Source: Chloroflexota bacterium
Lineage (GTDB): Bacteria > Chloroflexota > Anaerolineae > Anaerolineales > Villigracilaceae
Reading direction: 5' to 3'
Assembly: GCA_016223135.1 (NCBI GenBank)
Contig: JACRPQ010000004.1
Span: 620,001 to 684,000, forward strand
Length of the DNA: 64,000 bases
Part shown: in pieces, positions 28,482 through 45,661 of the stretch
Layout of the letters: each line of letters begins with the position of its first letter
Position numbering within the stretch: position 1 is the first letter of the stretch
The notes under the pieces: model-generated
The model's input: only the letters and a program-made list of their open reading frames with translations
Databases searched by the model: none
What the model was told of the DNA's origin: nothing
Position numbers and translations under genes: made by a program

Positions 28482-28498
28482 GGATGCTCAATTCGTAA

Positions 28499-29131: not shown

Positions 29132-29137
29132 GGTCGC

Positions 29138-30853
29138 TTACGAATTCGGAATGTATTGCGGCGCCAACACGAAGGCATATTCGTAGAAGAACAAGCCGAC
29201 GGCGGCGCACAACGCGGCAAGGGGCATGGAGGCCGGCAGGAGAATGATCATCGCCAGCGGGAGAAGATGCGCCAAGACGATGCCGCCCCACCAGTAGTGA
29301 TTGCGGAAGCGTCCCTGCGTCATTTCACGGTAGCCCAACAAAGCGACTTCGGATGCGAAGGAGTTGAATCTGCTTGCCAGAGTCAGGAGCAGATTCAACG
29401 CAATGCTGGCAGGGAAGAGGCGGAAGAGCATGTCGCTCAGCGATTCGGGATAGGGGACGAAGAGGTTGAGGACAATGAACGTCCCGCTGGCAACCATCAT
29501 GGATTGGGTGAAGAGTTGGAAGGGCAGAAGCGGACTCTGCCACATGTCGCGCCCTTCGGCTTGACCGAGCAGGAAGGCGGTGTAGATGACGGCAAACAGG
29601 GCGAGCGGGAACGTCAACCACGCGGCAAACGGACGGAGGACTGATGCTGTTTCGAGGGGCAGTATCCCCGCCTGAGCCGCGCCTTCGAGCAGCCACCACA
29701 ATCCGGCAATGGCTGTGAACCCGACGAGGATGAACGCGCCGCGCGCCACCCATGATTTCCACTGCGGGCGGAGCAGGATGCTCAAGAAACGCTTGGGCTG
29801 TGACAGGTCTTTGATCAGCAGGATCACGGTGATGAGCATGAAGACCATCGCAGTGAAACCCGCGGCGAGGAAGGTCAGCGAGTCGAAGGTAAACATGCCG
29901 AGTCCCGCGCCGAGGCTGAGGAGCATGAAGAGTCCGCCAGCGATGTTTTTGGTGACGAGGTAGGCGGGCAGTTCCCAATGCCAGTTGATGCGGTGCTGGG
30001 CGTTGTAGGCGGTCTGTACCATGTGTTCGGCGACGCGCCCGCCGATTTGGATGGGACCGTAGAGCGGGCGTCCCTGTTCGCGCGGGGTGCGGATGGGCGC
30101 GCCCGATTTGGATGTTGGTCTCGATACGGCGGCGGTGGTCGAGTAAGACGAAGTCTGTACCGAGACCCCGCCGCCTACTCGACCAGCGGCGTCTGATCCG
30201 CCGCTGATTACGGGCAATTCATATAACGATGTGTTTTGTTCGGTGACTTTATCCGCCCACATGAACGAATCGTGCGCGGGGGAGGCGGTGGGGTGTAACG
30301 CCCAATCGTTGCCGTTGATGTAGAAGAGTTTGGGAGCCGTCCCCTGTTCGGGCTTGCGGACGGTCGCTTGGGCAGTTGCCAGCTTTCGGCTGATTTCCGA
30401 AGCGGGGTCGTTCAAATCTCCAGCAAGAATGGCATGTTCGGGGCAGACGACGACGCAGGCGGGTTCGAGTCCCACGTCCAACCGATGCGCGCAGAAATGA
30501 CACTTCGCGGCGGTGTTGGTTTCGGGGTCGAGATAAATCGAGTCGTAGGGGCAGGCTTGCATACAGGATTTGCACCCGATGCAAATGGACGGGTCGAACT
30601 CGACGATGCCGTCATCACGCTGATACATGGCAGTGACGGGGCAGATGCGCACGCACGGCGGGTTGGCGCAGTGATTACAGCGCGTCACCTGAAAGCGGCG
30701 GCGCACGTCGGGGTAGGAGCCCGTCTCCACATACTTGACCCACGTGCGATACACGCCCAGCGGCACTTGATTCTCGGACTTGCACGCGGTGGAGCAGGCG
30801 TGACATCCGATGCATTTGCTTTGGTCAATGAGGAAGCCGTAGTTTTGTGTCAT
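29138..30853 (-). CDS. Fused 4x[4Fe-4S] ferredoxin and NrfD-type membrane subunit (SoeB-SoeC-like)
   Basis: A 571-residue fusion. Residues 1-150 hold four [4Fe-4S] motifs (CIGCHACSTAC, CNHCANPPCVRIC, CIGCKSCMQAC, and CHFC with ACVVVC) typical of DmsB/PsrB/SoeB electron-transfer subunits. Residues 270-571 hold eight or more membrane helices of the NrfD/DmsC type that exchange electrons with menaquinone. Fusion of B and C subunits is less common than separate genes. The linker (about residues 222-246, SGGSDAAGRVGGG) is encoded by an inserted GGTCTCGATACG repeat. It is expected to pass electrons from the SoeA-like subunit to the quinone pool. Confidence 0.85.
   Translation of the reverse strand: MTQNYGFLIDQSKCIGCHACSTACKSENQVPLGVYRTWVKYVETGSYPDVRRRFQVTRCNHCANPPCVRICPVTAMYQRDDGIVEFDPSICIGCKSCMQACPYDSIYLDPETNTAAKCHFCAHRLDVGLEPACVVVCPEHAILAGDLNDPASEISRKLATAQATVRKPEQGTAPKLFYINGNDWALHPTASPAHDSFMWADKVTEQNTSLYELPVISGGSDAAGRVGGGVSVQTSSYSTTAAVSRPTSKSGAPIRTPREQGRPLYGPIQIGGRVAEHMVQTAYNAQHRINWHWELPAYLVTKNIAGGLFMLLSLGAGLGMFTFDSLTFLAAGFTAMVFMLITVILLIKDLSQPKRFLSILLRPQWKSWVARGAFILVGFTAIAGLWWLLEGAAQAGILPLETASVLRPFAAWLTFPLALFAVIYTAFLLGQAEGRDMWQSPLLPFQLFTQSMMVASGTFIVLNLFVPYPESLSDMLFRLFPASIALNLLLTLASRFNSFASEVALLGYREMTQGRFRNHYWWGGIVLAHLLPLAMIILLPASMPLAALCAAVGLFFYEYAFVLAPQYIPNS
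30115..30189. repeat. GGTCTCGATACG palindromic repeat (family B) in frame inside the Fe-S/NrfD gene
   Basis: TTGGTCTCGATACGGCGGCG ... CGCCGCCTACTCGACCAGCG, about 75 bp, preserving frame. It encodes a glycine/serine-rich linker between the ferredoxin and membrane domains. Confidence 0.85.
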
Positions 30854-30956: not shown

Positions 30957-32042
30957 TTAAGCGGCTTGCGGAGGGGTGACCGCGTTCATAATCGCCGTTG
31001 TGAAATCGGCGGGCGTGACGCCAGGGGATTGGATGTTGAGGCGGTAGTACGCTTCTTCGATTTTGGATTTGAGATTCTCCGGCGTGGCGGAGACCCCGCG
31101 CAACGATTGTTCGAGCGCGCCAACGGCAAAGACGGGCAGCAGGGTGAAGTCGCCAGAGATGGTGACATCGTCAATGCGCCCTTCACGCAGGCGGGCGATG
31201 ACGCGGATCAGTCCGCCCTGCGCCTTGAACGCCGCTTCGACGATGTGGACATCCTGATGGATTTTCACGCCCTGCTGTTTGAGTTGACCCTTCTGGTACA
31301 GCCATTCGTCGGAAGTGAAGCGGGCGTCAATCTCTTTTGCCATGGCTTCCTCTTCGGCTGTCCATTCGCCTTCGTAGATTTCCGCGCCCAGCGCTTCGGA
31401 GACTTTCTTCAGGTACAGGTCTTTGACCATGACGCGGTCGGGGGTGTAACCGAGCTGCTCGGTCATGGTGGTCATGTAGGCTTCGAGCGACTCGAAGATT
31501 TTGTCGCGCATTTTCTCGGAGGGGACTTTCAGCACCTGCGACATGGTCTTCTTGTCGAAGGTGTACATCAGGCTGCCGACGAGAATCTCCGCAATGCCCA
31601 TCTGCGCCGCGCCCGTGCCGCCGATCTTCTTGCCGTTGACGTGGATGTCGTTGATGGGGCGGTAGTTGGCGTTGATGCCCAATTCTTTGTAGGTCTGCAC
31701 GATGGGGTCAATGTAGAGGGCGAAGCGTTCTTCGAGCGAGGCGGGCAGGTCTTCTTTGTGGAAAATCCATTGCGTGAAGAGTTGACCGCTGTCCAAATAC
31801 ACCGCGCCGCCGCCCACTTCGCGGCGATACACGGGCAGGTTATGCGCCGCGCAGTAATCCAAATCCACTTCTTTTTGCAAGTCCTGGTGATAGCCGATGG
31901 ACACATACGGCGCGTTGGGCGAGACGAGAATGATGGTGTTCGGCGTGTCCTGCTTCATGGCATAGCCGACCGCGTGGTAAACGGTCTGCGAACGGAGAGG
32001 CGATACGCCTTCCAAGTAGAGCAAACGGATTTTCTTGGACAT
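30957..32042 (-). CDS. lplA: Lipoate-protein ligase
   Basis: A 361-residue ligase that would attach lipoate to the two LbpA proteins encoded just upstream. The lipoate-binding RREVGGGAVYLDSGQL (about residues 72-87) and catalytic lysine region NDIHVNGKKIGGTGAAQ (about 125-141) match LplA. A C-terminal accessory domain (about 255-345) with GDFTLLPVFAVGALEQSL is present, as in full-length LplA. I start at MSKKIRLLYLEG (RBS GGAG); the extension to 32108 reads a tandem repeat. In sHdr loci a dedicated ligase is common, and its product is required for LbpA function. Confidence 0.9.
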   Translation of the reverse strand: MSKKIRLLYLEGVSPLRSQTVYHAVGYAMKQDTPNTIILVSPNAPYVSIGYHQDLQKEVDLDYCAAHNLPVYRREVGGGAVYLDSGQLFTQWIFHKEDLPASLEERFALYIDPIVQTYKELGINANYRPINDIHVNGKKIGGTGAAQMGIAEILVGSLMYTFDKKTMSQVLKVPSEKMRDKIFESLEAYMTTMTEQLGYTPDRVMVKDLYLKKVSEALGAEIYEGEWTAEEEAMAKEIDARFTSDEWLYQKGQLKQQGVKIHQDVHIVEAAFKAQGGLIRVIARLREGRIDDVTISGDFTLLPVFAVGALEQSLRGVSATPENLKSKIEEAYYRLNIQSPGVTPADFTTAIMNAVTPPQAA

Positions 32043-32067
32043 TGGGGAGACTCCTTTGGATGGGAAA

Positions 32068-32120
32068 TACGTACACAGGTAAACAAGTACACACGTAAAC
32101 AGGTACACACGTATACAGGT
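32068..32120. repeat. 8-bp tandem array, locus 3
   Basis: TACGTACACAGGTAAACAAG and similar units, all in direct orientation, ending on the first base of the lbpA stop codon. Between lbpA and lplA. Confidence 0.82.
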
Positions 32121-32566
32121 CAGTCAATGCACCTCAAACAATTGATCTTCAATTCCTTGATTCTTTCCTTATATCTCTCTACTGCCGCTTCGCCCGTGAC
32201 GAGATGACTGCGTTCCGCTTCGAGATTGGTGGGACGCACCTTGACCAGCCAGCCGCTCCCGTAAGGGTCCTTGTTGGCGAGCAGGATGTTTTCGGCGAAG
32301 CCTTTCTCATTCGTTTCAACAATTTCGCACGAGAACGGCGCGGGGAACGGTCCCACCCATTTGGCGGATTCAATCGTCGCCAGCGCCTTGCCCTGCGCCA
32401 CCTTCTTCCCGACATCCCGAAAACTGATTGCCGCGATCTTGCCGCCGCGCGTCTGCGCCACATCGGTCATGCCGAGCGTGGCAATCCCGCCATCGAAACG
32501 AATCCAAACATCGCGCTCGATGTCGTAATAGAGGTCTTCGGGAATGTCACAGGCGTAGAAGATCAT
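32120..32566 (-). CDS. lbpA: Lipoate-binding protein LbpA, copy 1 (GcvH-like)
   Basis: A 148-residue protein of the GcvH fold with the lipoylation lysine Lys69 in TIESAKWVGPF. The ESAKWVGP pattern and the sHdr context identify the LbpA branch, which serves sulfur oxidation rather than glycine cleavage. No gcvP or gcvT lies nearby. It would carry a sulfur-containing intermediate or electrons on its dihydrolipoyl arm to the sHdr complex. A Shine-Dalgarno is not visible, and the upstream gap is a repeat array. It differs from copy 2 at the N-terminus and around the lysine. Confidence 0.88.
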   Translation of the reverse strand: MIFYACDIPEDLYYDIERDVWIRFDGGIATLGMTDVAQTRGGKIAAISFRDVGKKVAQGKALATIESAKWVGPFPAPFSCEIVETNEKGFAENILLANKDPYGSGWLVKVRPTNLEAERSHLVTGEAAVERYKERIKELKINCLRCID

Positions 32567-32629
32567 TGGTAGATGGTTTGGTGATTGGTAACTGCCATTT
32601 ACTAATTACCAATCTCCAATCTCTGATTA
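32567..32629. repeat. TTGGTAATT-type array between the two lbpA genes
   Basis: Units such as GGTGATTGGTAACTG, CTAATTACCAATC and CCAATCTCTGATTAC fill the gap and overlap the stop codon of lbpA copy 2. The same family is at 35560-35717 and inside soeA. Confidence 0.72.
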
Positions 32630-33064
32630 CTCAAAATTGAGATTCTGCTCTTCCATGAACTTTCGATACGCCTCCACCGCCGCTTCGCCCGTGAGAAGGG
32701 AGGCGGATTCGCCTGCCCAATCGGTTGGCTTGAGTTTGACGAACCAGCCTTCGCCGTAGGGGTCGCTGTTGATGAGCGAGGGATTTGCCCGCGCCGCTTC
32801 GTTCACTTCGACAATTTCGCCTGTGATTGGCGAGGTGACGGGTCCCACCCATTTGCCGCTTTCCAACGTTCCAGCGCTTTTGCCTTTTTGCACGGTGCGC
32901 CCCGCCTCTTTTGGCGTGACGTTGACGATGCCCTTCGCCAAGTTCTGCGCCACGTCGGTGATACCGATCTTCACCGTGCCGTCATCCTGCGGCAGCGCCC
33001 AGGCATGTTTCTCCACCCAGTAGTAGAGATTTTCAGGAATGTTACATCCGCGAACTGTTGCCAT
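32627..33064 (-). CDS. lbpA: Lipoate-binding protein LbpA, copy 2 (GcvH-like)
   Basis: A 145-residue GcvH-fold protein with lipoylation Lys71 in GTLESGKWVGPV. The downstream part NPSLINSDPYGEGWFVKLKP is typical GcvH C-terminal sequence. The start MATVRGCNIPENL has a strong AGGAGA; a longer frame reaches 33097 but lacks one. It precedes copy 1 in transcription. Two LbpA copies in one locus, about 40% alike by eye, suggest two partners or two steps. Confidence 0.88.
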   Translation of the reverse strand: MATVRGCNIPENLYYWVEKHAWALPQDDGTVKIGITDVAQNLAKGIVNVTPKEAGRTVQKGKSAGTLESGKWVGPVTSPITGEIVEVNEAARANPSLINSDPYGEGWFVKLKPTDWAGESASLLTGEAAVEAYRKFMEEQNLNFE

Positions 33065-33079
33065 GTTTATTCTCCTAGT

Positions 33080-33132
33080 TATCCCTCGCCCCTTCACCCC
33101 TCTTCCATTGGGAGAGGGGACGGGGGTGAGGG
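33080..33132. repeat. CCCTCGCCCC ... GGTGAGGG palindromic repeat
   Basis: CCCTCGCCCCTTCACCCCTC followed by GAGAGGGGACGGGGGTGAGG. It encodes the C-terminus of the zinc-finger protein (PLPMEEG) and ends 16 bases before the lbpA start. A related tract (CTCCTTTTAGGAGAGGGGAA) is at 53008-53036. Confidence 0.7.
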
Positions 33133-33405
33133 TAAATTGTGCTCACCTTGCAGGTGATACAGAAGTAGATCGAAAACAACCAGCCGAATTTCGTATTCAT
33201 ATTCTGACACAAAATTCGGGTCGCGGCGCGCTTTCTTTGTGACCTGTTCGTAACTCGCGCCGCACACGGGACAGGTGATCACGTAAAATGTGTGCTTCGT
33301 AAATTCATCCACGCGCACACCGAGCGTATCGCCGTGACTCTCCGCCAAGTGATTGTGGACTTCCGAGCGTTTACCACTAAAATCGCAGTAGGGGCATTTG
33401 AACAT
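33094..33405 (-). CDS. Small C2H2/CxxC zinc-finger protein of the sulfur locus
   Basis: A 103-residue protein with an N-terminal C2H2-like finger (Cys4, Cys7, His18 or His16, and His23: FKCPYCDFSGKRSEVHNHL) and a second CxxC pair in TCPVCGASYEQV. Bacterial C2H2 fingers are uncommon; family and function are not recognised. It sits between the membrane Fe-S oxidoreductase gene and lbpA, in the same direction. It may be regulatory or a metal/sulfur handling factor. The last residues are repeat-encoded, so the original C-terminus was probably shorter or different. Confidence 0.65.
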   Translation of the reverse strand: MFKCPYCDFSGKRSEVHNHLAESHGDTLGVRVDEFTKHTFYVITCPVCGASYEQVTKKARRDPNFVSEYEYEIRLVVFDLLLYHLQGEHNLPSPPSPLPMEEG

Positions 33406-33431: not shown

Positions 33432-33477
33432 GGACTATTTGACCATTTGACTATTGGACTATCCGACTATTTGACTA
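33432..33477. repeat. GACTATTTGAC-type array over the stop codon of the membrane HdrD-like gene
   Basis: Units GACTATTTGAC, CATTTGACTATTGGAC, TATCCGACTATTTGAC. The array encodes the last residues (SQIVG) and the stop of the gene at 33459-35540. Confidence 0.75.
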
Positions 33478-35540
33478 ACTTCTTCCACGCCGACCGCTTC
33501 CGCCACCAACTGAATGATGTCGCGGACTTCGATCTTGCCTTCGTTGCCCGTCGTCTTGACCGCGTCCGAATACATGACCATGTCCTTGGGGCAGGTGACG
33601 ATGAAGAGCTGTTTCTTTTCGTTTGGATGTCTCTCGAACGTGGTCAACGCTTCCTTGATGCGGTTCTCGGCGGGGCGCTCGCCAGGCGCGACCTTGCCCA
33701 TCCAAATCTGACCGCCGCCCGCGCCGCAGCAGAATGAGTTCTCGCAGTTGCGCGGCATTTCGTGGAATTCCACGCCGAGCAGTTCGAGCAGCTTGCGCGG
33801 AGCGGTGAAGCCGCCGTTGTAGCGACCGAGATAGCACGGGTCGTGGAAGGTGACTTTGTAATGTGAGAGTTTGTTTTTCACCGTCAACTTGCCTTCTTCA
33901 AACAACTTGAGCAAGGTCACGGTGTAATGCTTGACCTCAAATTTTCCGCCGAACTGCGGATACTCGTTCTTGAGCGTGTTGAACGAGTGCGGGTCGGTGG
34001 TGACGATTTGCTTGAACTGCGCTTTGCCGAACGCCGCCATGTTCTGCTCGACCAACTGCTCGAACAAACCTTCTTCGCCCACGCGGCGCACGTCGTTGCC
34101 TGCGTTGGATTCGTTCTGATAGAGAATGCCGAAGTCCAAGCCTGCCTGATGGAAGATGCGCGCCACCATCTTGGTATTCGGGATGACGCGCTCATCGAAC
34201 GAAGCGGTATCGCCGACGAACCACAGAACCTCCACAGGCTCTTCCGTCGCGTTCTTGACGGGGAACTCCATCTCCTTCGCCCAGCGTCCGCGCAGACGTT
34301 TGCCTTTGCCCATCCAGTTTCCGTTGGTCGCGAGAGATTGAAGCGCGTTCTGCACGCCGCTGTCAATCTCGAAGCCGTCAATCAACATGCGGCGGCGGAT
34401 GTCCACGATGTCTGCCATCGGTTCGTTGCCGACAGGACACACGCGGACGCAGGCGTAACAGGTTGTGCAAGACCAAACCGCTTCGGGGGAGATGACGGTC
34501 TCCGTAAGCGGAGCCAGCAGCAGGTCGGGGTGAGAACCGAAGGTCGCTTCCTTGAGGAGATAACGCTTGTTCACCTCCAAAGCCGAAGGGGAGAGCGGTC
34601 GCCCGTAGAAATTCGCAGGGCAGACATCCTGACAGCGGTTGCATTGCACGCAGGCGTAGGCGTCCATGATGCGCGTCCAGGCGAGATCGGTGATGACCTT
34701 CGCGCCAGGGTCATACTTGCGCCCGTCAATGACTTTGAGCGGAATGGCGGGGTCGAGCTGCCCGCGCGGATTCTGTTTGGCAAGACCAAGATTGATGGGC
34801 GCCATGAAAAAGTGCGTATGCTTGCTGCGCGAGAGGTAGGGAATGATGAACATCACCCAGCCGATGCTGATCCACCACGCAACATGCACGCCCGTTTGCG
34901 ACGCGCCGAAGATGGAATTGAGAAAACTGGCGATGGGCATGAACGGGTCGGCGCCTTCGGTGAGACGATACGCCTGACTCATCAAATGCGCGCTGACGTG
35001 CATGATGACGAACACGCCGACAATGAGCGAATCTTTCGCCTGCCCGCCCGCTTTGACTTTGGGATTCAGCAGTACGTTCTCGCGGTAGGCGAGCGCCTTG
35101 TCTTTGACGATGAAGCGGCGCACGAGAAAGACCGTGATGGCGATGAGCAGAAAGCCGCTCATCACATCGGAGATGAGGTTGTAGGCGTTGATGAGGGGGA
35201 CCGTCCAGGCGGGAGGCGAGAGATGTTTGCCGCTGTAGATCAGGTCGAAGTTGGGGACGAGCCCTTCCAGCGCATCCACAAGGTTGACGAAGGCGTAGGT
35301 GATGAGACCGAAGAACAGTCCCATGTGGATTGCGCTGAGGACTTTGCGCGCCTTGAAGATGGTCTGCTGGAACAAAACGGTCACGCCCGCCTTGAGCAGA
35401 CTCGCAGGGATGTTCTTCAACTCCGGCGCGGGTCGTCCCATGCGGATGGTGTCAATGATGGTCTTGAACCCGTGAACTGTGAATCCCGCCGAAACCAGCG
35501 CGAGCAGGATGAAGAGGATTTTTTCAATCGTAGTGAGCAA
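33459..35540 (-). CDS. Membrane HdrD/NarI-type Fe-S oxidoreductase, probable EtfAB:menaquinone oxidoreductase
   Basis: A 693-residue fusion. The N-terminal ~270 residues have about six membrane helices of the NarI/haem b type. Then come two [4Fe-4S] motifs (CVQCNRCQDVCP and CTTCYACVRVCP, about 297-365) and a CCG domain ending NCENSFCCGAGGGQIWMG plus FIVTCPKDM. This order matches the membrane EtfAB:menaquinone oxidoreductase (EMO, DUF224) I know from anaerobic acyl-CoA oxidisers. The adjacent etfBA genes support this. In this locus it would take electrons from sHdr via EtfAB to menaquinone. It starts with TTG after GGGAGGG. Its soluble half closely resembles the fused HdrC-HdrB protein at 38216. 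Confidence 0.82.
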   Translation of the reverse strand: MLTTIEKILFILLALVSAGFTVHGFKTIIDTIRMGRPAPELKNIPASLLKAGVTVLFQQTIFKARKVLSAIHMGLFFGLITYAFVNLVDALEGLVPNFDLIYSGKHLSPPAWTVPLINAYNLISDVMSGFLLIAITVFLVRRFIVKDKALAYRENVLLNPKVKAGGQAKDSLIVGVFVIMHVSAHLMSQAYRLTEGADPFMPIASFLNSIFGASQTGVHVAWWISIGWVMFIIPYLSRSKHTHFFMAPINLGLAKQNPRGQLDPAIPLKVIDGRKYDPGAKVITDLAWTRIMDAYACVQCNRCQDVCPANFYGRPLSPSALEVNKRYLLKEATFGSHPDLLLAPLTETVISPEAVWSCTTCYACVRVCPVGNEPMADIVDIRRRMLIDGFEIDSGVQNALQSLATNGNWMGKGKRLRGRWAKEMEFPVKNATEEPVEVLWFVGDTASFDERVIPNTKMVARIFHQAGLDFGILYQNESNAGNDVRRVGEEGLFEQLVEQNMAAFGKAQFKQIVTTDPHSFNTLKNEYPQFGGKFEVKHYTVTLLKLFEEGKLTVKNKLSHYKVTFHDPCYLGRYNGGFTAPRKLLELLGVEFHEMPRNCENSFCCGAGGGQIWMGKVAPGERPAENRIKEALTTFERHPNEKKQLFIVTCPKDMVMYSDAVKTTGNEGKIEVRDIIQLVAEAVGVEEVSQIVG

Positions 35541-35559
35541 CGCGCCCTCCCGAAGATGG

Positions 35560-35717
35560 TGATTGGTAATTAGAGATTGGTAATTGGTAATTTTGTTTCG
35601 TCATGGCGAGGAGGGTGTTCTTCCCGACGAAGCAATCCCCGCGCAGTGGAGAAGATTGCTTCGCTTTGCTCGCAATGACGGGTGCCGAGCAAATTACCAA
35701 TTACCATTTACCAATTA
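35560..35717. repeat. Nested repeat: TTGGTAATT inverted arrays around a CATGGCGAGG element
   Basis: Outer arms GATTGGTAATTAGAGATTGG and TTACCAATTACCATTTACCA are inverted. Between them lies a palindromic element (GTCATGGCGAGG ... CTCGCAATGACGGG with GAAGCAATCCCC / GAGAAGATTGCTTC) related to 25310-25380. The right arm supplies the etfA stop codon. This is one repeat inserted inside another. Confidence 0.82.
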
Positions 35718-36662
35718 CAAAAGTTCCAACATCGCCTCAGCCACTTCAAACAGATCCGCCGTTGCGCCGTAATGCGCCACGTTGAAGATGGGCGCTTTCT
35801 TGTCGGTGTTGATGGCAATGATCAACTCCGCGCTCTTCATGCCTTCGAGATGTTCAGGCGCGCCGGAGATGCCGAGCATGAGATACAACTTCGGTTTGAC
35901 CTTCAAACCCGACTTGCCCACCTGCCTTGTGCGCGGCAGCCAGCCCGCATCCACTACCGGGCGCGAAGCGGAGACCGCCGCTCCCAGTTTCGCCGCCAAC
36001 TCTTCGGCAAGCTCGATGTTCTCCTTGCCGCCGATGCCGCGCCCCACCGAAACCAGTTTCGTCTGCGCGGTGATGTCCACGTCGCCGCCGGCAGGTTTGA
36101 CCATCTCGATAAACTTCATCTTCAGTCCGCTCAAATCCACGGGCGAAGCGATTTTCTCCGCCGCCGTCGCGCCCTGTCCCGCCTCCGCAGGGAACGAACC
36201 CGCCAAACACGCCACGATTGCCGTCTCCCCTTCGGGCGCGACCTCCGCCGTCAACTTGCCGCCATACGCCTGACAACTCACGACAACGCCGCCCCCTTCG
36301 ACGCGCACGTCCTTCGCATACGCCGCGCACGGAACGCCGAGTCGCGCCGAAAGCCATGCCGCCACGTCCATGCCCGTCACCGTCCAACCGAACAGGACGA
36401 CCCGCGGGGCTTTTTCCTTGACCAGCGCTTCGATGACTTTTCCATACGCTTCGGGATTGAACTGACTCAGCGCCGCGTCGTCCACTTGGATGGTCGAATC
36501 GGACGCGAAGACATTCGCCTCCACCCCGCCTCCGACCACGACGGCGACTGCCTGCCCTCCCAAGGCTTTTGCCAACTCCTTAGCCTTTCCCACCATCTCG
36601 AACGACACATCTGAGAATTTGCCATCCAAATGTTCGGTGATTACGAATACGTCATTACTCAT
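35715..36662 (-). CDS. etfA: Electron transfer flavoprotein, alpha subunit
   Basis: A 315-residue ETF alpha. The C-terminal FAD-binding domain is clear: VSVGRGIGGKENIELAEELA, SRPVVDAGWLPRTRQVGKSG and the family signature LYLMLGISGAPEHLEGMKSA followed by IAINTDKKAPIF. With EtfB it forms the soluble FAD/AMP electron carrier. In this operon the donor is likely the sHdr complex and the acceptor the membrane HdrD-like protein. RBS GAGGAG. Length is normal. Confidence 0.95.
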   Translation of the reverse strand: MSNDVFVITEHLDGKFSDVSFEMVGKAKELAKALGGQAVAVVVGGGVEANVFASDSTIQVDDAALSQFNPEAYGKVIEALVKEKAPRVVLFGWTVTGMDVAAWLSARLGVPCAAYAKDVRVEGGGVVVSCQAYGGKLTAEVAPEGETAIVACLAGSFPAEAGQGATAAEKIASPVDLSGLKMKFIEMVKPAGGDVDITAQTKLVSVGRGIGGKENIELAEELAAKLGAAVSASRPVVDAGWLPRTRQVGKSGLKVKPKLYLMLGISGAPEHLEGMKSAELIIAINTDKKAPIFNVAHYGATADLFEVAEAMLELL

Positions 36663-36748
36663 TTGCGTGTCTCCTCAATTGACTATAGACCATTGACGAT
36701 TGACCATGAGCTTCTATCGTCCATCGACCGTCGTCTATTGTCTGGCGG

Positions 36749-37504
36749 TTACGCCAGTCCCTTGCTCTTCAACAACTCCACAATCTTCGCCGCCACTTCC
36801 TTCGGCGACCCTTCGATCATCTCGGCGTGACCCGTCGCCACAGGCGGAGCCATCTTCTTGAACGCCAACCCCGCTGACGCCTCACCCGTCGGCGCGACCT
36901 TCTCTATCGTCGCCGTTTGCGCCATCTGGCGGACTTTGCTCACGGGCGCATAGCGCGGCGGCTTCGGCGCGGACTGCACACCCGCCACGAAGGGCAGCGT
37001 CACCGAATACTTCATCCCCACCCCGCCAGGGAATTCCTTTGAAACGGTTGCCGTATTGCCGGAGACCTCAATCGCGCTCGTCCCGCCGATGTAGGGCATA
37101 TCCAAATACGCCGCAATCATGGGACCAATCTGCCCGTCAATATCATTCGAAGCCTGCACGCCCGCGAAGACCATATCCGCGCCCATGCCTTTGATGGCTT
37201 CCGCCAGCCATTTGGCTTGTTGATGCGAGTCCGCGGCGGGATCGTCGGCGGTGATTTTCACCACTTTGTCCGCGCCCTTTGCCAGCGCGAGATGAAGCGC
37301 GTTGTCCAACTCCCCGATCAAATCCACGCCGACCACAGTCACCGTCCCGCCGACGGCTTCCTTGATCAACACTGCCTGCTCGATGGAATGCTCGTCCCAC
37401 TCGTTGAGCACGAAATCCACCGAGTCAAAATCCACGTTATTGCCTTTGACGGGCAGGTCATCGGCAATGCTGGGGATGTGTTTGATGGCTACGACTATGT
37501 TCAT
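36749..37504 (-). CDS. etfB: Electron transfer flavoprotein, beta subunit
   Basis: A 251-residue ETF beta starting MNIVVAIKHIPSIADD, with a good AAGGAG. The AMP/FAD-site motif VFAGVQASNDIDGQIGPMIA and the MKYSVTLPFVAGVQ segment are typical. It precedes etfA with an 86-base gap that contains degenerate repeats of the type GGTCGATGGACGATAG. Whether it is of the bifurcating type (which needs FAD in place of AMP) cannot be decided by eye. Confidence 0.95.
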   Translation of the reverse strand: MNIVVAIKHIPSIADDLPVKGNNVDFDSVDFVLNEWDEHSIEQAVLIKEAVGGTVTVVGVDLIGELDNALHLALAKGADKVVKITADDPAADSHQQAKWLAEAIKGMGADMVFAGVQASNDIDGQIGPMIAAYLDMPYIGGTSAIEVSGNTATVSKEFPGGVGMKYSVTLPFVAGVQSAPKPPRYAPVSKVRQMAQTATIEKVAPTGEASAGLAFKKMAPPVATGHAEMIEGSPKEVAAKIVELLKSKGLA

Positions 37505-37631: not shown

Positions 37632-37979
37632 TCAGGTTTCCGCTTCACTGCTATCGCTCAGTCCTGCTCGACCAACGAGATATTCTTGCAATTTCTTTTT
37701 ATCGAATTTCTTCTTCGCCAGCGCAGGGAGTAATTCAGGCGTTCCATTGATCAATGCTTCTCTCTTCGCTCTACTCCAATTTTGAACCTGCTTTTCTCGA
37801 TAATAAGCGTCTGCTACTCTTTCGTACTCTTCAGCGTACACAAGTTCTACTGGCAATCGTCTTGATGTATATCGTGCGCCTTTGCCTGATTGATGCTGTG
37901 CGATACGAAGTTCAAGATTCTTTGTCGAGCCGACATAATACGAACCATCCGCACATTTCAGAATATACATCCATGCCAT
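37632..37979 (-). CDS. GIY-YIG nuclease domain protein inserted in the sulfur operon
   Basis: A 115-residue single-domain GIY-YIG protein: MYILKCADGSYYVGSTKNLE carries the Y-x-L/Y-V-G motif, RIAQHQSGKGARYT the conserved arginine/histidine region, and a later glutamate lies in YYREKQVQNWSR. Small proteins of this type (UPF0213/YhbQ-like) are widespread nucleases of unclear role. I start at MAWMYIL; upstream ATGs read into family B repeats. It has no obvious role in sulfur oxidation and is flanked on both sides by family B repeats, so it may be part of a mobile or repeat-borne insertion. Confidence 0.82.
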   Translation of the reverse strand: MAWMYILKCADGSYYVGSTKNLELRIAQHQSGKGARYTSRRLPVELVYAEEYERVADAYYREKQVQNWSRAKREALINGTPELLPALAKKKFDKKKLQEYLVGRAGLSDSSEAET

Positions 37980-38022
37980 ATAAGCTCTTTTTTTTTTCAT
38001 CCGCGCTTGGCAGTCGAGCAGC

Positions 38023-38215
38023 CGCCGTTGGTCGAGTAGGACTTTGTCCGTATCGAGACCAGGCGGCATACCGAGACCACCATTAACCAAAGCAACTCCT
38101 GTTACAAGTTTTTTCCCTGCAAACCGATGGTCTCGATACGGCGGCGATGGTCGAGTAGGGTTGAGTAGCGAAGCGTATCGAAACCCATACCGAGACCCGC
38201 CGCCTACTCGACCAT
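38023..38215. repeat. Composite family B element: two inverted palindromes around a spacer
   Basis: Left unit GTCGAGTAGGACTTTGTCCG ... TACCGAGACCACC, a spacer CATTAACCA ... TTACAAG, then the right unit GGTCTCGATACGGCGGCGAT ... CCGCCTACTCGACCA. The same left unit, ACCA spacer and right unit order recurs at 39527-39666. It starts one base after the stop of the fused HdrC-HdrB gene. Confidence 0.85.
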
Positions 38216-39496
38216 CTACTCACCACGCATTGACCTATCCAACAGCTCCAAAATATCCAGCACATCCACATGTTCATTGCCTGTGGACTTGACCGCGTCC
38301 GTGAAGCGCGAGACTTCAAACGGACAAGCCACTGCCAGCACGTCCGCGCCTGTGGAGGCGGCTTCCATCGCGCGTTTTTCGGAGAGGCGCATGGTGGTGT
38401 GCTTGGCGGTGAACGAGTCCATCCACATGCCGCCGCCACCGCCGCCACAGCAATAACCGTTTTCGCGGTTGCGCTGCATTTCAACCAACTCCACGCCAGG
38501 GATGGCTTCGAGCAGTTTGCGGGGGGCTTCGTATTCGCCGTTGTGGCGTCCGAGATAGCACGGATCGTGATAGGTGATTTTCTTGTTGACGGGGTGTTTG
38601 AGCATGGGCTTGAGTTGGTCAAGATGACGCGCCAGGAAGGTGGTGTAATGAACGACGGGGCGTTCAAAGCCATACTTCGGGTACACGTTCTTGAACGCGT
38701 TCAACTCATGCGGACCCGTGACCACCATCTCCTTCCACTCATACTTGTTGAAGGTTTCGATGTTGTACTCCGCCATCATCTCGAAGAGACCCTTCTCGCC
38801 AGCCAGCCGCTGAGAGTCGGCGTCGTCCTTTTCTTCCTTGCCGAGAATGGCGAAGTCAATGCCGAGCGCGGTGAAGATGCGCGCCGCCGCGCACGCCGCG
38901 TCAATGCCGCGCGGGTGATAGGACGGGTATGAGCCGACATACCACAACACATCCACAGGGCGACCCAAATCCTTGATAATCGGCACAGGCACGCCCGCGG
39001 ACTGAATCCACGCGTCGCGTTTGCGCTGGGGTTGTCCGAGCGGGTTGCCGCTTTTGGCGGTGTTCTCGAACGCCTGTTGTAATTCCGCAGGGACGAACTT
39101 GCCTTCCAAAATCGCCTGCTCGCGCACGGCGGGCATGATCTTGACCATGTTCACTTCTTTGGGACACACCCGCAGACAGTTGGCGCAGGTGGTGCAAAGC
39201 CACAACTCGGGCGCTTCGGTCAAATCCAAGCCTGTTTGGGCGTAGCGATACAACTTGCGCGGACCGTAATTCCCGACCACGTCCACAGGGCAGACGGCGA
39301 CGCACTTGGCGCACTGATAACAATTCGCAAACGATTCCGCGTTGGGGATGGACGCTACCTTCTCGATCAGTTCGGGCGTGTACTCGAAAATCACCCGCTG
39401 TTCGAACATGCGGTTCCAGTGACCCGAAACATCCACGCCGTCCACGATGACGTTTTCTTTTTCGATTGCAATTGCTTTTTCGTATTTTTGTGCCAT
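38216..39496 (-). CDS. Fused HdrC-HdrB (sHdrB3-like) Fe-S protein
   Basis: A 426-residue soluble protein. Two [4Fe-4S] motifs of the HdrC type (CYQCAKCVAVCP at about 59-70 and CTTCANCLRVCP at about 101-112) are followed by an HdrB/HdrD-like CCG domain: HDPCYLGRHNGEYEAPRK, then NGYCCGGGGGGMWMD and ACPFE. From memory, one class of sHdr clusters replaces separate C2 and B2 subunits by one fused protein and adds EtfAB, which fits here. It lacks the NarI part of its relative at 33459. RBS AGGAGA. A likely subunit of the sulfur-oxidising Hdr-like complex. Confidence 0.82.
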   Translation of the reverse strand: MAQKYEKAIAIEKENVIVDGVDVSGHWNRMFEQRVIFEYTPELIEKVASIPNAESFANCYQCAKCVAVCPVDVVGNYGPRKLYRYAQTGLDLTEAPELWLCTTCANCLRVCPKEVNMVKIMPAVREQAILEGKFVPAELQQAFENTAKSGNPLGQPQRKRDAWIQSAGVPVPIIKDLGRPVDVLWYVGSYPSYHPRGIDAACAAARIFTALGIDFAILGKEEKDDADSQRLAGEKGLFEMMAEYNIETFNKYEWKEMVVTGPHELNAFKNVYPKYGFERPVVHYTTFLARHLDQLKPMLKHPVNKKITYHDPCYLGRHNGEYEAPRKLLEAIPGVELVEMQRNRENGYCCGGGGGGMWMDSFTAKHTTMRLSEKRAMEAASTGADVLAVACPFEVSRFTDAVKSTGNEHVDVLDILELLDRSMRGE

Positions 39497-39526: not shown

Positions 39527-39666
39527 GGTGGTCGAGTAGCGACGAGCGCTTGTTGCGAGGAGCGTATCGAGACCACCAGTAACCACAATAATGCTGATTA
39601 CAAGATTTCGTATGTGTACCCGTTGGTCTCGATACGAGCGGGAGAAGCGCCGCTCTACTCGACCAA
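39527..39666. repeat. Composite family B element, second copy
   Basis: GGTGGTCGAGTAGCGACGAG ... CGTATCGAGACCACC, spacer AGTAACCACAATAATGCTGA ... TTACAAG, then GTTGGTCTCGATACGAGCGG ... CTCTACTCGACCAACGG. The right end encodes the last residues and stop (MPLVE) of the upstream gene. Confidence 0.88.
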
Positions 39667-40452
39667 CGGCATATCTTTTACTTTTGGTAGCCCTAGCAAT
39701 CTCCTCGCCATATTCGGCAGGGTGGGCAGCAGCCCGTTGAACTCGCGGCTCAAGCGCCAGCTTGTCGTGCCGTACAAATAAACGCTGTAGGCGCACGCCA
39801 GAAAAGCGCTGTTGGCAAACGGAGCGCGCTTCGGGTCGTCGGTCAGGGCGGGGGTGAACAAGCCCGTCCCTTCGCCGAACTTGACGCTCATCGCCGTCAC
39901 CGCGCCCACGCGGACGTATCCATCCGCGAGATTGTCGGCAACCAGGTTGTGGATGCTCCCCGCCAGCAGCGGAAGAATGCCCGTGCCGACGGTCGGGTCC
40001 CACAGCCAGCGAGTCCACAGCCAGTGTTGGGAGGGGAAGGCGTTGTGTAAAAGTCCGGTGGCGAGTTCGAGCGCGAGACGGGTGTCGAGGGCGCTCAACT
40101 TTTCGACGAAGGTTGCCACCCGCACGGCAGCGGGAGCGTCGCCGCGCAGTAATGGGTCGAAGAGGGCAAAGTCGCCTTGCGCAAAGTAATTGGTAATGGT
40201 TCGCGCGTTCGCCTTGGTGTGCGCGACAGCGGAAGCGATGTCGGCGAAGGAGGAGGCTAAAGAAGCAGAGTCCGTTTGAAGTCCAAGAAAGAGGCGGGCG
40301 TGACGTTCCGCCAATTCGTCTGCGATGGCAATCACATCCTCAGGCGCAACCTGTCCCAACGCTTCCTGCAACGTCGCTTGCAGTTCGGGATCGTCGGGTC
40401 CCGTCTTTTGTTTGATGATGTGGCTTTGTCGCTGAGGTTGATTCATTAACAT
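39655..40452 (-). CDS. Unknown helical protein of the sHdr locus (position of sHdrH)
   Basis: A 265-residue, mostly helical, alanine-rich protein without cysteine motifs of the Fe-S kind. I recognise no domain. It sits directly after shdrA and before the fused HdrC-HdrB gene, the place where sHdr clusters carry a conserved hypothetical (Hyp/sHdrH). Position, not sequence, suggests this role. Possible features are an N-terminal coiled region (about 20-110) and a hydrophobic C-terminal half (WLWDPTVGTGILPLLAGS). Its final residues MPLVE and stop are encoded by a family B repeat. The start is uncertain by two codons. Confidence 0.6.
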   Translation of the reverse strand: MLMNQPQRQSHIIKQKTGPDDPELQATLQEALGQVAPEDVIAIADELAERHARLFLGLQTDSASLASSFADIASAVAHTKANARTITNYFAQGDFALFDPLLRGDAPAAVRVATFVEKLSALDTRLALELATGLLHNAFPSQHWLWTRWLWDPTVGTGILPLLAGSIHNLVADNLADGYVRVGAVTAMSVKFGEGTGLFTPALTDDPKRAPFANSAFLACAYSVYLYGTTSWRLSREFNGLLPTLPNMARRLLGLPKVKDMPLVE

Positions 40453-40542: not shown

Positions 40543-41586
40543 TCACGCCCTCACCAACGCCATCGCGCGCGCCGCCGCGAGACCCGCAGACGAAATCGAG
40601 TCGTTCAAATCGGCAGGACCTGCCGCCGCGCCCGCGACGAAAATGCCAGGCACAGACGTGGCGACCGTATCGAGACCGCCCTCGCCGCCCGCTTCGATGA
40701 AGCCGTATTTGTTCTGCTTCACGCCCATCAGTTGCGCGATGGCGCGCGTGCCTGCGCTCGGCTCCATGCCCACCGAAAGCACGACCAAATCCATCGTCAC
40801 TTCCATGGGGCGGCTCATCGTTGTGTCTTCGCCGCGAATGAGCAGTTGATCGCCCTTCCTCAACACTTCGCTGATGACGCCCTTGACGTAGTTGACCTTG
40901 TGCTGTTCCTGCGCCTTCCAATAAATTTCATTTTCCCAATAGCCGTACATGCGCATGTCAATGTAAAAAATCATCACCTTGCTGTCGGGCAATTGCTCGC
41001 GCAGTTCAATCGCCTGCTTGCTGGCGATGCCGCAGCACACCTTCGAGCAATACTCGTTTCCAATTTGGCGGTCGCGCGAACCGACGCATTGAATGAACGC
41101 AATCTTCTTCGGCGGCTGTCCATTCGACGGGCGCACGACGTTGTGTTCCTTCAACATCTTTTCCAAATCGGTCAACGTGATGACATCGGGGAATGTGTAG
41201 TAGTTGTAGTATTGCGTGGCGCGACCCGGATCGAAATGCTGGAAACCTGTGGCGATGATGATCGAACCGACGTTGAGCGACTCGGCGACCCCGCCCGCTT
41301 CTATCTGGACCTCGAAATTGCCGGCGCTCCCAGACATTCCCTTCACTTCGGCGTTGTACTTCACTTCCACCCGCGCGTGGTTCGTGACCGCAGACGCCAA
41401 CTCCGCCATCGCCTCCGACGCGTCGCGCCAGTGATGGGTGAGTTTGGCGTAACCTTCGCGGTCGGGCGTCCCGCCGAGACGGTCGCGCTTTTCGAGCAGA
41501 ATGACCTCCCCGCCGAGTTCCGCCGCAGACCGCGCCGCTTCAAGTCCCGCAGGTCCGCCGCCGATGACTAATACTTTGTTGGACAT
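40543..41586 (-). CDS. shdrA: sHdrA-like FAD/[4Fe-4S] subunit
   Basis: A 347-residue flavoprotein. The N-terminal FAD Rossmann motif is VIGGGPAGLEAARSAAELGG. The cysteines of the HdrA cluster are at 180, 184 and 185 (YCSKVCCGIASKQA). A second dinucleotide-type region is VVLSVGMEPSAG, and the C-terminal GIFVAGAAAGPADLNDSI closes the FAD site. At about 350 residues it has the short length of the sulfur-oxidising sHdrA, without the extra ferredoxin domains of methanogen HdrA. RBS GGAGGA. The genes before and after (shdrB1 side and fused HdrC-HdrB) confirm the complex. Confidence 0.88.
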   Translation of the reverse strand: MSNKVLVIGGGPAGLEAARSAAELGGEVILLEKRDRLGGTPDREGYAKLTHHWRDASEAMAELASAVTNHARVEVKYNAEVKGMSGSAGNFEVQIEAGGVAESLNVGSIIIATGFQHFDPGRATQYYNYYTFPDVITLTDLEKMLKEHNVVRPSNGQPPKKIAFIQCVGSRDRQIGNEYCSKVCCGIASKQAIELREQLPDSKVMIFYIDMRMYGYWENEIYWKAQEQHKVNYVKGVISEVLRKGDQLLIRGEDTTMSRPMEVTMDLVVLSVGMEPSAGTRAIAQLMGVKQNKYGFIEAGGEGGLDTVATSVPGIFVAGAAAGPADLNDSISSAGLAAARAMALVRA

Positions 41587-41603
41587 GTATGTTCCTCCGT
41601 GCA

Positions 41604-41672
41604 TAGGGGACGTTCCTAACGTTCCTAACGTCCCATGATGTTTGATTGCGCGGCGTTAGGGAACGCCGATTA
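41604..41672. repeat. Hairpin repeats (GACGTT...AACGTC type) at the methyltransferase gene end
   Basis: GGGACGTTCCTAACGTTCC and GGCGTTAGGGAACGCC. In transcription order the methyltransferase stop codon TAA is the start of this element (GCGTAATCGGCGTTCCC). Confidence 0.75.
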
Positions 41673-43730: not shown

Positions 43731-43799
43731 GGGATTCTCCAGTTTTCAGGATGGAACCAATAAATTCCATGTCGAAAGTCAATGGTCGGCAGATAAACC

Positions 43800-43848: not shown

Positions 43849-44556
43849 TTATCCTTCTTCCAACTCTTCCTGCATCACATCTGCCAATAACTCATACAGC
43901 CCTTCGTCAATCTCTTTGATGATGTCCATGTTGCCCGTCTCGAACCAGATGGTATAGAGTTCGAGCAGAGTCTTGCGGTTGGTCTTCCACGCCGCATCGG
44001 TGACGCCGCGCAGGGTATCCACAGGGATGGCTTTTCTCCACACGGGCATATTCGCGGAGAACTGTCCCACCCACGGACCCCAGTCGGGGAAGAAGTCGGG
44101 TTGGAGCATATCGGGCGAGACCTGGTTGCCCTTGAGCATGACCTTGTAGATGACACGGCTGTAGCCTTGCAAAACGTCTTTGGTCTCCTGCAAGCCGTTC
44201 TTGACCGCCACTTCGCGCAGGAGGGTCACAAGCCCGCCGGGGTTGTTTCCGCGCGGACAGCGCAGACACGAGAAACACTGCGCGCAGTTCCAGATGTCTT
44301 CGGCGATGATGTCGTACACGCGCTCGATGTCCTCGCGCGCCATCGCTTGGGCAATGACGCGGGGGGAGTAATCGTAGAAGCGCGCCGAGGGGCAGGTCGA
44401 AACGCAGATGCCGCACTCGTAGCATCCGTACAGGAAGTCTTCGTAGCGTGGGTCGTTTTTGACCTCGAAGAAGAGGCGCTCCTTCTCCTCGTATGTCACT
44501 TCGGGGTGGCGGTTTGCCGCCTTGCCTGGATTCCAATTTTCGAGAGTGGTTGGCAT
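43849..44556 (-). CDS. shdrC1: sHdrC1-like ferredoxin subunit
   Basis: A 235-residue HdrC-type protein with two [4Fe-4S] motifs: CYECGICVSTCP (about residues 42-53) and CAQCFSCLRCP (about 91-101), the second followed by RGNNPGGLV. It links the HdrA flavin with HdrB. The remainder is helical. RBS GGAG. shdrC1 then shdrB1 is the standard opening order of sHdr clusters, here preceded by tusA and two dsrE genes. Confidence 0.88.
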   Translation of the reverse strand: MPTTLENWNPGKAANRHPEVTYEEKERLFFEVKNDPRYEDFLYGCYECGICVSTCPSARFYDYSPRVIAQAMAREDIERVYDIIAEDIWNCAQCFSCLRCPRGNNPGGLVTLLREVAVKNGLQETKDVLQGYSRVIYKVMLKGNQVSPDMLQPDFFPDWGPWVGQFSANMPVWRKAIPVDTLRGVTDAAWKTNRKTLLELYTIWFETGNMDIIKEIDEGLYELLADVMQEELEEG

Positions 44557-44566
44557 AACATCTCCG

Positions 44567-44635
44567 CCGCGTAATTGGCGTTCTCTAACGCCTAAAAATG
44601 CGCTAGAGAGCGCATACTACGCTATACTAAAAACC
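44567..44635. repeat. Two hairpin repeats between dsrE and shdrC1
   Basis: GGCGTTCTCTAACGCC and TGCGCTAGAGAGCGCA, each a strong stem, lie head to tail from the dsrE stop to the shdrC1 RBS. Same family as 42476, 41604 and the core of 25383. Confidence 0.78.
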
Positions 44636-45028
44636 GATCACCGCATCCGCGTCGCACGCCATGTCGTTGAACGCCGCGCCGCCGATCATCTCCACGCCTT
44701 CGATCATGTCGTCCATGGTGTAGCCGTGCAGGTCGAGCGAAGGCTGGCAGACGAGAAACCGAACGCCCATTTCCGCCGCCTGTTCGATGAAGAACTTCAA
44801 TTCTTTGCCGCCGCCTCCCTTGCGGGGGATGACGATTTTCTCGCCGTTGCCCTTCGCCACGCATTGCGGACCGTTCATCGTGAAATAGATGGCGACTTCA
44901 TTGTCCATCGCTGCGGCGGCAGTCGCCAAAAAGAACGGCGTTGCCGTCCGTTCGGGGTCTTTCTCGCCGTGCGTTTGAATGTAGAGAATCTTCTTGACAT
45001 CGGGGTCGTTGGTTTTCCAGACGCTCAT
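44627..45028 (-). CDS. DsrE-family sulfur carrier protein, copy 2
   Basis: A 133-residue DsrE/DsrF-like protein. Signatures: ILYIQTHGEKDPERTATPFFLA at the N-terminus, YFTMNGPQCVAKG, and VRFLVCQPSLDLHGYTMDD, in which the cysteine of the CQPSL segment is the likely sulfur-binding residue. A further cysteine is in MACDADAV. I start at MSVWKTND after GGAG; the longer frame reads a tandem repeat. Such proteins pass persulfide sulfur between TusA and the oxidation complex. Confidence 0.85.
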   Translation of the reverse strand: MSVWKTNDPDVKKILYIQTHGEKDPERTATPFFLATAAAAMDNEVAIYFTMNGPQCVAKGNGEKIVIPRKGGGGKELKFFIEQAAEMGVRFLVCQPSLDLHGYTMDDMIEGVEMIGGAAFNDMACDADAVIGF

Positions 45029-45052
45029 GGGTGGGTCTCCGGGGAGAGTAAG

Positions 45053-45134
45053 TATGTACACAAGTACACATGTATACAAGTACACAAGTACACAAGTGAC
45101 CTGTGTACCTGTCTACCTGTGTACTTGTGTACTT
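45053..45134. repeat. 8-bp tandem array, locus 4, direct then inverted
   Basis: Direct units (GTACACAAG, GTATACAAG) run to about 45098, then inverted units (ACCTGTGT, ACCTGTCT, ACTTGTGT). Hairpin-forming. It lies between two dsrE genes and starts a few bases after a stop codon. Confidence 0.85.
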
Positions 45135-45136: not shown

Positions 45137-45661
45137 CTATATGAACAACTGCACATCCGCATCCGCGGCATATTCGAGGAAGGTCGCCGCGCCGCCGATT
45201 TCGCATTCCTTGATGAAGTCATCGCGCTTGAAGCCGAACACGTCCATCGTCATCTGGCAGCCAATCATGCGCACATCCAGGTCAATGCACATCTGGCGCA
45301 GTTCTTCGACGGTGGCGACGCCCTTGTTCTCGAAGGTCTGTTTCATCAACGTGGTTGCCAGAGCGTTGAAGCCCGGCACGTTTGCCATAAGCAATTGCGG
45401 GATGGGCCAGTTGATGTTCTGGAAACCTTCGGGACCGAAAGGCATCTTCATCGGCATGGCGGGGTTGCCCAGCGGAGTGACCGTCGCGGTCAGCTTTGGC
45501 TTGAGCAGGGTCAACCCATAGAAGGTGAAGAAAATGCCTACTTCCCAGCCCATCGCGCCGGCGGCGCTGGCAAGGATGAAGGGCGGGTACGCCCAGTCTA
45601 AGGTCCCTTTGGAAGCGATGAGGGCGAGTCGCTTCGGGGCGTTGGGGTCAGATTTGGACAT
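45137..45661 (-). CDS. DsrE2/DsrE3-type sulfur carrier protein, copy 1
   Basis: A 174-residue protein of the DrsE_2 group. The conserved cysteine is in MIGCQMTMDVFGFKRDD near residue 136, followed by GGAATFLEYAADADVQLFI. The N-terminal KRLALIASKGTLDWAYPPFI and MGWEVGIFFTFYG match the family. There are hydrophobic stretches but no certain transmembrane anchor. RBS AGGAGAG. Together with TusA and the second DsrE it forms the sulfur-delivery module of the locus. Confidence 0.88.
   Translation of the reverse strand: MSKSDPNAPKRLALIASKGTLDWAYPPFILASAAGAMGWEVGIFFTFYGLTLLKPKLTATVTPLGNPAMPMKMPFGPEGFQNINWPIPQLLMANVPGFNALATTLMKQTFENKGVATVEELRQMCIDLDVRMIGCQMTMDVFGFKRDDFIKECEIGGAATFLEYAADADVQLFI

Follow-up and report, generated by a model that had tools for sequence, protein, structure and literature searches.

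Where the electrons go when a heterodisulfide reductase-like sulfur-oxidizing (sHdr) system oxidizes sulfur is an open question, and a gene cluster of a Chloroflexota bacterium bears on it. The window, which here means the whole 64,000-nucleotide stretch that was analysed (contig C3:620001-684000), belongs to a 3.8-Mb genome that is 98% complete. On its minus strand, sHdr genes are followed by genes for an electron transfer flavoprotein (ETF; EtfB and EtfA, together EtfAB) and for a membrane protein that, from its sequence, is probably an ETF:menaquinone oxidoreductase (EMO). We consider it likely (probability about 0.65) that EtfAB and the EMO serve a type II sHdr system as its dedicated electron exit, with electrons passing from sHdr through the fusion protein sHdrB3 (B3) to EtfAB, the EMO and menaquinone. 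If true, this ETF-EMO branch would load menaquinone without NAD. The main proposal has precedents: sHdr genes linked to etfAB and a transmembrane HdrC-like protein are already in the literature, as is the suggestion of an exit through ETF, and the present finding refines a known system.

The type II sHdr cluster and its EMO

Passages of the literature, to which all citations here refer, define type II sHdr as shdrC1B1AHB3 with etfAB (PMC11582611). The window cluster is of this type, with shdrC1, B1, A, H and B3 syntenic and etfAB in the same cluster. The order on the minus strand is DsrE2, DsrE, sHdrC1, sHdrB1, a methyltransferase open reading frame (ORF), sHdrA, H, B3, a GIY-YIG ORF, EtfB, EtfA, EMO, a Zn-finger ORF, two LbpA (lipoate-binding proteins) and the ligase sLpl; beyond sLpl lie an Fe-S/NrfD fusion, a membrane protein and a molybdopterin enzyme. 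The original prediction had etfB and etfA followed by a NarI/HdrD fusion, and all three genes lie where it placed them, the third encoding a membrane-spanning protein with Fe-S and CCG domains. The main features are listed below.

33459..35540, minus strand: EMO, membrane EtfD-like protein of 693 aa with five transmembrane-like segments, haem b ligands, two cubane sites, a first CCG domain (CCG1) without D1 and a second (CCG2) with Asp653
35715..36662, minus strand: EtfA
36749..37504, minus strand: EtfB with Hdr-type recognition loop PRYAPVSKVRQ
38216..39496, minus strand: sHdrB3, HdrC-HdrB fusion and soluble EMO paralogue, best solved relative by sequence EtfD
39655..40452, minus strand: H protein of the sHdr cluster, no Pfam or NCBIfam match at the thresholds used
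40543..41604, minus strand: sHdrA, short flavoprotein of 353 aa
42516..43730, minus strand: sHdrB1
43849..44556, minus strand: sHdrC1
44627..45085, minus strand: DsrE-type sulfurtransferase
45137..45661, minus strand: DsrE2-type sulfurtransferase

The two Etf subunits match the Pfam models ETF and ETF_alpha above cut-off. The window EMO has a plausible TTG start with GGGAGG just upstream. It matches Pfam Fer4 and CCG models, and only the second of its two CCG domains scores. Its closest solved relative by sequence is Mycobacterium smegmatis EtfD (9ojn, E 2e-72), and an AlphaFold2 model (pLDDT 85.5) resembles the same structure (TM-score 0.82, E 3e-35). The protein belongs to the EtfD/EMO fold family, in which a five-helix transmembrane haem b domain is fused to two Fer4 and two CCG domains. 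The layout of the predicted “NarI/HdrD fusion” is recovered, but no NarI Pfam model matched and the likeness of the model to NarI is weak (E 0.35-0.47).

Ligand positions were taken from the EtfD paper (PMC13083937). The haem ligands His78 and His241 of EtfD correspond to His72 and His243, and Arg137 and Arg306 are present as Arg142 and Arg302; the positions of EtfD H78 and R137 rest on motif and conservation, since the 9ojn alignment begins at residue 102 and is loose there. All eight cubane cysteines are present, as are the four D2 cysteines (569, 604, 605 and 650) and His518, the counterpart of EtfD His583. In contrast, the D1 ligands C503, C538, C581 and C584 are replaced by Asp444, Asn479, Asp516 and Ser519, the D2 ligand C712 is replaced by Asp653, and the long C-terminal tail of EtfD is missing. 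The window EMO lies outside the EtfD subclass with a linear [3Fe-4S] D1 cluster, having neither the D1 ligands nor C712. Loss of the D1 cysteines is also described for FadF and DgcB (PMC13083937). The earlier comparison with the EMO of acyl-CoA oxidizers stands for the fold and for the haem and cubane ligands; the protein itself belongs to a sister clade without D1 and is not of the EtfD type linked to acyl-CoA dehydrogenases (ACADs).

In the proposed route, protein-bound sulfane sulfur would be oxidized, presumably to sulfite, and electrons would leave through an Fe-S chain from sHdrA and sHdrC1 to B3. EtfAB would pick them up from B3, the presumed donor, and deliver them to the related soluble half of the EMO, flow being presumably directed towards the membrane. 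Inside the EMO, the wire suggested by homology would run from one D2-type non-cubane cluster through two cubanes and haem b to menaquinone, the presumed acceptor. Menaquinone is likely available, since menB in this genome scores above cut-off (439 bits); its synthesis by the futalosine route was rejected, PF02621 having given nothing.

Two kinds of EMO and their gene neighbours

Gene neighbourhoods were compared for 133 distinct EMO genes. The named loci were the best 80 of at least 591 rows, and the phylum was represented by 40 chosen stretches, mainly higher-scoring ones among the listed matches and not a random draw. Ligands were tabulated for 66 of the 80 named loci; the EMO frame was short or split in the other 14, among which L106 had an HdrABC-type context and 13 (L113, L115, L117, L118, L121-L124, L127, L128, L132, L135 and L137) showed no Hdr genes. 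The EMO fragment of genome G220 (L054) was too short for the table.

EMOs without D1 and with Asp at 712 were called D-type, and those keeping C503 EtfD-type. Forty-nine were D-type, 82 were EtfD-type (five without C584, one of which also lacks C581), and two were D1-less with Cys at 712. All 49 D-type EMOs fell on one side of a branch in the EMO tree (SH-aLRT 99), and the branch persisted with the diagnostic columns blanked (SH-aLRT 98). Within this clade the haem histidines are kept in 47/47 and 49/49 readable sequences and all eight cubane cysteines in 49/49. Two kinds of EMO separable by about five residues make genomes sortable by likely electron donor.

The two kinds differ in their neighbours. 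Twenty-eight D-type EMOs have sHdr contexts, 10 have HdrABC (eight with MvhD/MvhG, two with long HdrA and B3 only), one has B3 only and 10 have ETF only. With the window left out, Hdr genes occur at 38/48 D-type loci and at 0/84 of the other EMOs (Fisher 3e-24), and ACADs above 100 bits at 0/48 and 11/84 (Fisher 0.007); at a laxer E of 1e-9 the latter counts are 0/48 and 12/84. Loci differ in flank length, and the result holds in those of at least 10 kb alone (Hdr genes 24/32 versus 0/66, ACADs 0/32 versus 11/66). Consistent linkage of these genes to ACADs, which the original prediction had named as a refutation, was not found. Its remark that no ACAD lies nearby was likewise borne out: five ACAD probes from the same genome found none in the window, and the nearest PF00441 match on the contig is about 530 kb from the cluster. 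The expectation that this EMO would be confined to sHdr-bearing relatives failed, and “EMO only in sHdr bearers” was rejected as stated, since 10/49 clade members lie beside HdrABC and 10/49 beside ETF only.

EtfB sequences point the same way. The best solved relative of the window EtfAB is the ETF of 1o94, which we take to be the partner of trimethylamine dehydrogenase (TMADH), an enzyme with a [4Fe-4S] cluster as its donor site. EtfB proteins linked to Hdr carry a loop PRY(A/V/I)(P/A/V)(V/I)..., with V or I at its sixth position in 36/38 rows (L011 and L058 being one gene) and Leu there in none; the window has Val. At this position ACAD-linked EtfB has Leu in seven, Phe in two and Met in two (n=11), and EtfB linked to TMADH-type enzymes has Leu in 3/3. 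We assume that the Leu of the ACAD-partner recognition loop is Leu195 of human ETF. The window EtfB is without this Leu-containing loop. In the EtfB tree, which left out pieces below 150 aa (mostly from 5-kb loci), a branch with a support of 100 separates 36 rows, comprising the Hdr-linked ones and L062, L075, L094 and L095, from 29 others; on the 36-row side L029 and L053 are one gene.

Gene order is conserved among relatives. The order sHdrA-H-B3-EtfB-EtfA-EMO-Zn finger-LbpA-sLpl is identical in 5/5 relatives with long flanks, from three families, with one extra LbpA within it in L183 and L185. Zn finger aside (it was not searched for there), the order recurs in named records of other phyla, for example in Alicyclobacillus tolerans (L076) and a Calditrichaeota metagenome-assembled genome (MAG; L059). 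Sulfobacillus harzensis has LbpA and sLpl, then EtfB-EtfA-EMO. The nearest named record among the matches listed is an Anaerolineales MAG (L058), whose EMO is 88% identical.

Across the phylum, 19/301 genomes have sHdrA matches at E 1e-60, and 18 have short sHdrA after removal of G184, whose sHdrA-like matches are long HdrA and were not counted. All 18 have an sHdr-type EMO, 15 on the sHdrA contig and three on another (G179, G216 and G220, the last as a 59% identical fragment, L054, beside LbpA). In the window’s family, 7/17 genomes have both sHdrA and this EMO. In eight of the 10 without sHdrA (L025-L028, L030-L033) the EMO is EtfD-type, as read from the best EMO match only; the other two have an HdrABC-type EMO (G072) and an sHdr-type EMO (G064, on a contig that begins about 0.5 kb before B3). 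In genome G262 a B3 with 95% identity lies on a contig of 3.3 kb on which no etf was recognized.

Single genomes also divide the labour. The window genome has two PF00766 matches, the cluster EtfA and one that lies with an EtfB 2 kb from an ACAD (L039), and its second EMO is EtfD-type, alone on contig C12 (L038). In S. harzensis the EMO of the sHdr cluster is D-type, and two EMOs of the EtfD kind, one without C584, lie elsewhere.

B3, the HdrABC block and alternative routes

The closest solved relative of B3 is EtfD (E 3e-57), ahead of HdrC and HdrB, and 143 of 386 aligned residues are identical between the B3 and the EMO of the window. His583 is kept and C584 is missing in 26/26 B3 proteins, and Glu stands at 712 in 25/26 (L094 differs at its end). 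Shared loss of D1 in B3 and EMO was considered and weakened, as two or three of the four D1 cysteines are kept in 10/26 B3 proteins (C503 and C538 in all 10). B3 proteins form their own clade, with an sHdr-linked branch of 14 rows and an HdrABC-linked branch of 12, three of which have no Mvh genes in the locus; HdrABC-linked EMOs also form a branch (11 rows, L094 included). B3 accompanies EtfBA-EMO in both contexts. Its kinship to EtfD, its likeness to the EMO and these parallel branches suggest that both B3 and EMO serve as docking partners of EtfAB. Of the predicted chain from sHdr through EtfAB and EMO to menaquinone, the quinone exit fits the comparative data (18/18 genomes, ACADs at 0/48 loci), but the likelier partner of EtfAB is B3 and not sHdrA directly.

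The same block stands beside HdrABC and hydrogenase genes. In G018, G028, G080, L087 and L105 the order is B3, EtfB, EtfA, EMO, (HdrC), HdrB, long HdrA, MvhD and MvhG. A [NiFe] large subunit lies past MvhG in G080 and G028 (RICGVC, DPCFGC and PF00374) and in L105 (PF00374); none was seen in G072, the fourth place looked at. Variants of the block occur in MAGs of Opitutaceae (L092), Solibacteraceae and Terriglobia (L096, L100), Bacteroidetes (L097) and Ignavibacteria (L106). Neither LbpA nor short sHdrA was found in the HdrABC-context loci. As a separate observation, the stretch from EMO to HdrC in G080 contains histidine-kinase and response-regulator genes, and a Cache-domain sensor kinase, a hybrid kinase and a response regulator (L050:5110-8813, minus strand) lie inside a B3-EtfBA-EMO/HdrABC-hydrogenase cluster.

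We tentatively suggest, at somewhat below even odds, that B3-EtfB-EtfA-EMO forms a portable module through which Hdr-type complexes deliver electrons to quinone, common to sHdr and [NiFe]-hydrogenase-HdrABC in several phyla. EtfAB would shuttle between two homologous proteins on which it docks, B3 in soluble form and EMO in the membrane. Both would have a D2-type non-cubane cluster with an acidic residue, Glu in B3 and Asp in EMO, at the position of EtfD Cys712. If true, B3-EtfAB-EMO would connect Hdr complexes to respiration in a general way.

Several observations weigh against a dedicated sHdr exit. One of the two collecting peptides includes the clade’s Asp, so D-type EMOs are enriched, and the sHdr label in the context counts required an LbpA match. 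The 10 ETF-only D-type loci, four of them with a TMADH/DgcA-type flavoenzyme and one at a contig edge with a B3 fragment, have ETF genes and no Hdr genes, and short sHdrA is absent in 7/8 of their searched genomes; clade membership is therefore no proof of an Hdr donor. Two loci speak against a strict Hdr rule, those of Mesorhizobium norvegicum and a Pseudomonadota MAG (L062, L075): they carry EtfBA-EMO of the sHdr-type clade, with EtfB inside the sHdr group of the EtfB tree, no sHdrA was found in either genome, and the neighbours encode an NAD-binding dehydrogenase, a GMC oxidoreductase and amidohydrolases. An AidB/ACAD-like ORF of 96 bits (L182:627-2084, plus strand) lies about 12 kb upstream of the EMO in G018. 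Within the window, B3 and EtfB are separated by a 711-bp gap with the GIY-YIG ORF inside it, so a single transcript is only putative. The D1 cysteines retained in some B3 proteins also count here. Lastly, the menaquinone-stacking Phe85 and Phe230 of EtfD are Leu79 and Ile232 in the window EMO and in the seven nearest relatives read (Phe is kept at the two positions in 36/49 and 35/49 of the clade), which makes the quinone site less secure than the haem.

Four other routes were weighed. EtfAB and EMO could be the exit while another protein is the donor, either LbpA dihydrolipoamide through some flavoprotein or sHdrA directly, with B3 structural or catalytic only. LbpA adjoins EMO in sHdr gene orders (though it is also part of the sHdr label), B3 retains part of the D1 site in 10/26, and the sHdrA route of the original prediction remains compatible. 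However, HdrABC contexts have B3, and neither LbpA nor short sHdrA was found there, which makes B3 rather than LbpA the common element; we regard another donor as improbable, although it is the least improbable of the four. Slightly less probable is a bifurcating or confurcating EtfAB that splits sHdr electrons between EMO/menaquinone and a low-potential carrier or NAD. The HdrA and ETF families both have bifurcating members (PMC6085437), and a published model of sHdr allows lipoamide to pass two of the four electrons to NAD (PMC6067878). Against this, the short sHdrA (353 aa) has no Fer4 match, whereas the long HdrA of L050 (687 aa) has Fer4 domains. The nearest solved EtfAB by sequence is moreover the TMADH partner, presumably non-bifurcating.

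Reverse flow, in which menaquinol would reduce EMO, EtfAB and B3 and Hdr would spend the electrons on disulfide or sulfur reduction, appears a little more doubtful still. Gene content does not fix direction, the adjoining Mo enzyme weakly resembles thiosulfate/polysulfide reductases, and the same block adjoins HdrABC genes. On the other side, sHdr with LbpA is genetically an oxidation system in Hyphomicrobium (PMC10332631), and transfer from menaquinol to low-potential sulfur couples would be uphill, with no visible driving force. Least probable is that EtfAB and EMO are ordinary β-oxidation parts merely located in the cluster. The genome has five PF00441 matches, FadF, a D1-less EtfD homologue, is tied to β-oxidation in Bacillus (PMC13083937), and a D1-less EMO with Cys at 712 (L126) lies near an ACAD. 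Yet no ACAD was found at the 48 D-type loci, another EtfAB lies next to an ACAD in the genome, which also encodes an EMO of the EtfD type elsewhere, and EtfB loop and tree set the two kinds apart. An ordinary β-oxidation ETF was rejected on gene context, EtfB loop and within-genome pairing.

Known systems and accompanying genes

Related gene sets have been described before. A Hdr connection to the respiratory chain, possibly through ETF, was proposed for Thermomicrobium roseum in 2019 (PMC6776052), hdr-like clusters of group III contain etfBA (PMC6067878), and HdrF, a transmembrane-CCG fusion, lies beside etfAB (PMC2702500). The window shares all named genes of type II sHdr in one cluster, with LbpA and sLpl present, but the published definition has etfAB and no EMO in its passages (PMC11582611), whereas the window EMO follows EtfA and belongs to its own clade. 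Sulfobacillus hdr gene cluster II has etfAB and, in synteny, a long HdrC with six transmembrane helices and CCG domains, compared there with Desulfobacterium autotrophicum (PMC4378227), and the S. harzensis EMO carries the same ligand signature as the window EMO; passages of that paper contain no ligand analysis or HdrABC-hydrogenase link. T. roseum trd_0160-0142 has hdrABC, etfAB, three LbpA and DsrE and is up a mean of 45-fold under nutrient limitation, but its membrane acceptor is not named in the passages (PMC6776052). DgcB of dimethylglycine catabolism has also lost the D1 cysteines (PMC13083937). The EMO clade of the window also takes in L085 and L089, two loci that have a TMADH-type flavoenzyme; their EtfB has another recognition loop and lies outside the Hdr side of the EtfB tree, and no B3 was found there. 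Literature passages found by term search, with subscription papers mostly outside them, contain no text that brings together EMO ligands, type II sHdr and hydrogenase-HdrABC, and they describe neither a distinct EMO clade marked by its ligands, nor a class of EtfB loops, nor a block common to sHdr and hydrogenase-HdrABC; this does not amount to a claim that print lacks them.

The other features of the window cluster are as follows.

30957..32108, minus strand: sLpl(AB)-type lipoate:protein ligase
32120..32566, minus strand: LbpA 2
32627..33097, minus strand: LbpA 1, GcvH-like lipoate-binding protein
33094..33405, minus strand: small Zn-finger-like protein of 103 aa, conserved between EMO and LbpA in relatives
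37632-38090, minus strand: GIY-YIG ORF between B3 and EtfB
41670-42458, minus strand: methyltransferase ORF between sHdrB1 and sHdrA

The Zn-finger-like protein is kept in L058 and in 5/5 relatives with long flanks; neither the methyltransferase ORF nor the GIY-YIG ORF was seen in the relatives L182-L186. After sLpl, positions 25497-30853 encode a Mo-bisMGD oxidoreductase (994 aa), the Fe-S/NrfD fusion and a small membrane protein, and genes resembling the first two recur beside sHdr in L058, L060 and L069. The best named relatives of the Mo-bisMGD enzyme are thiosulfate/tetrathionate reductase types, all below cut-off. At a guess, it might be a cytoplasmic sulfite oxidizer like SoeABC, which we take to be of that type. 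Several intergenic gaps of the cluster have short tandem repeats (7-24 bp) inside them or at their edges, at 32069-32120, 33432-33477, 35557-35592, 43799-43845 and 45056-45132.

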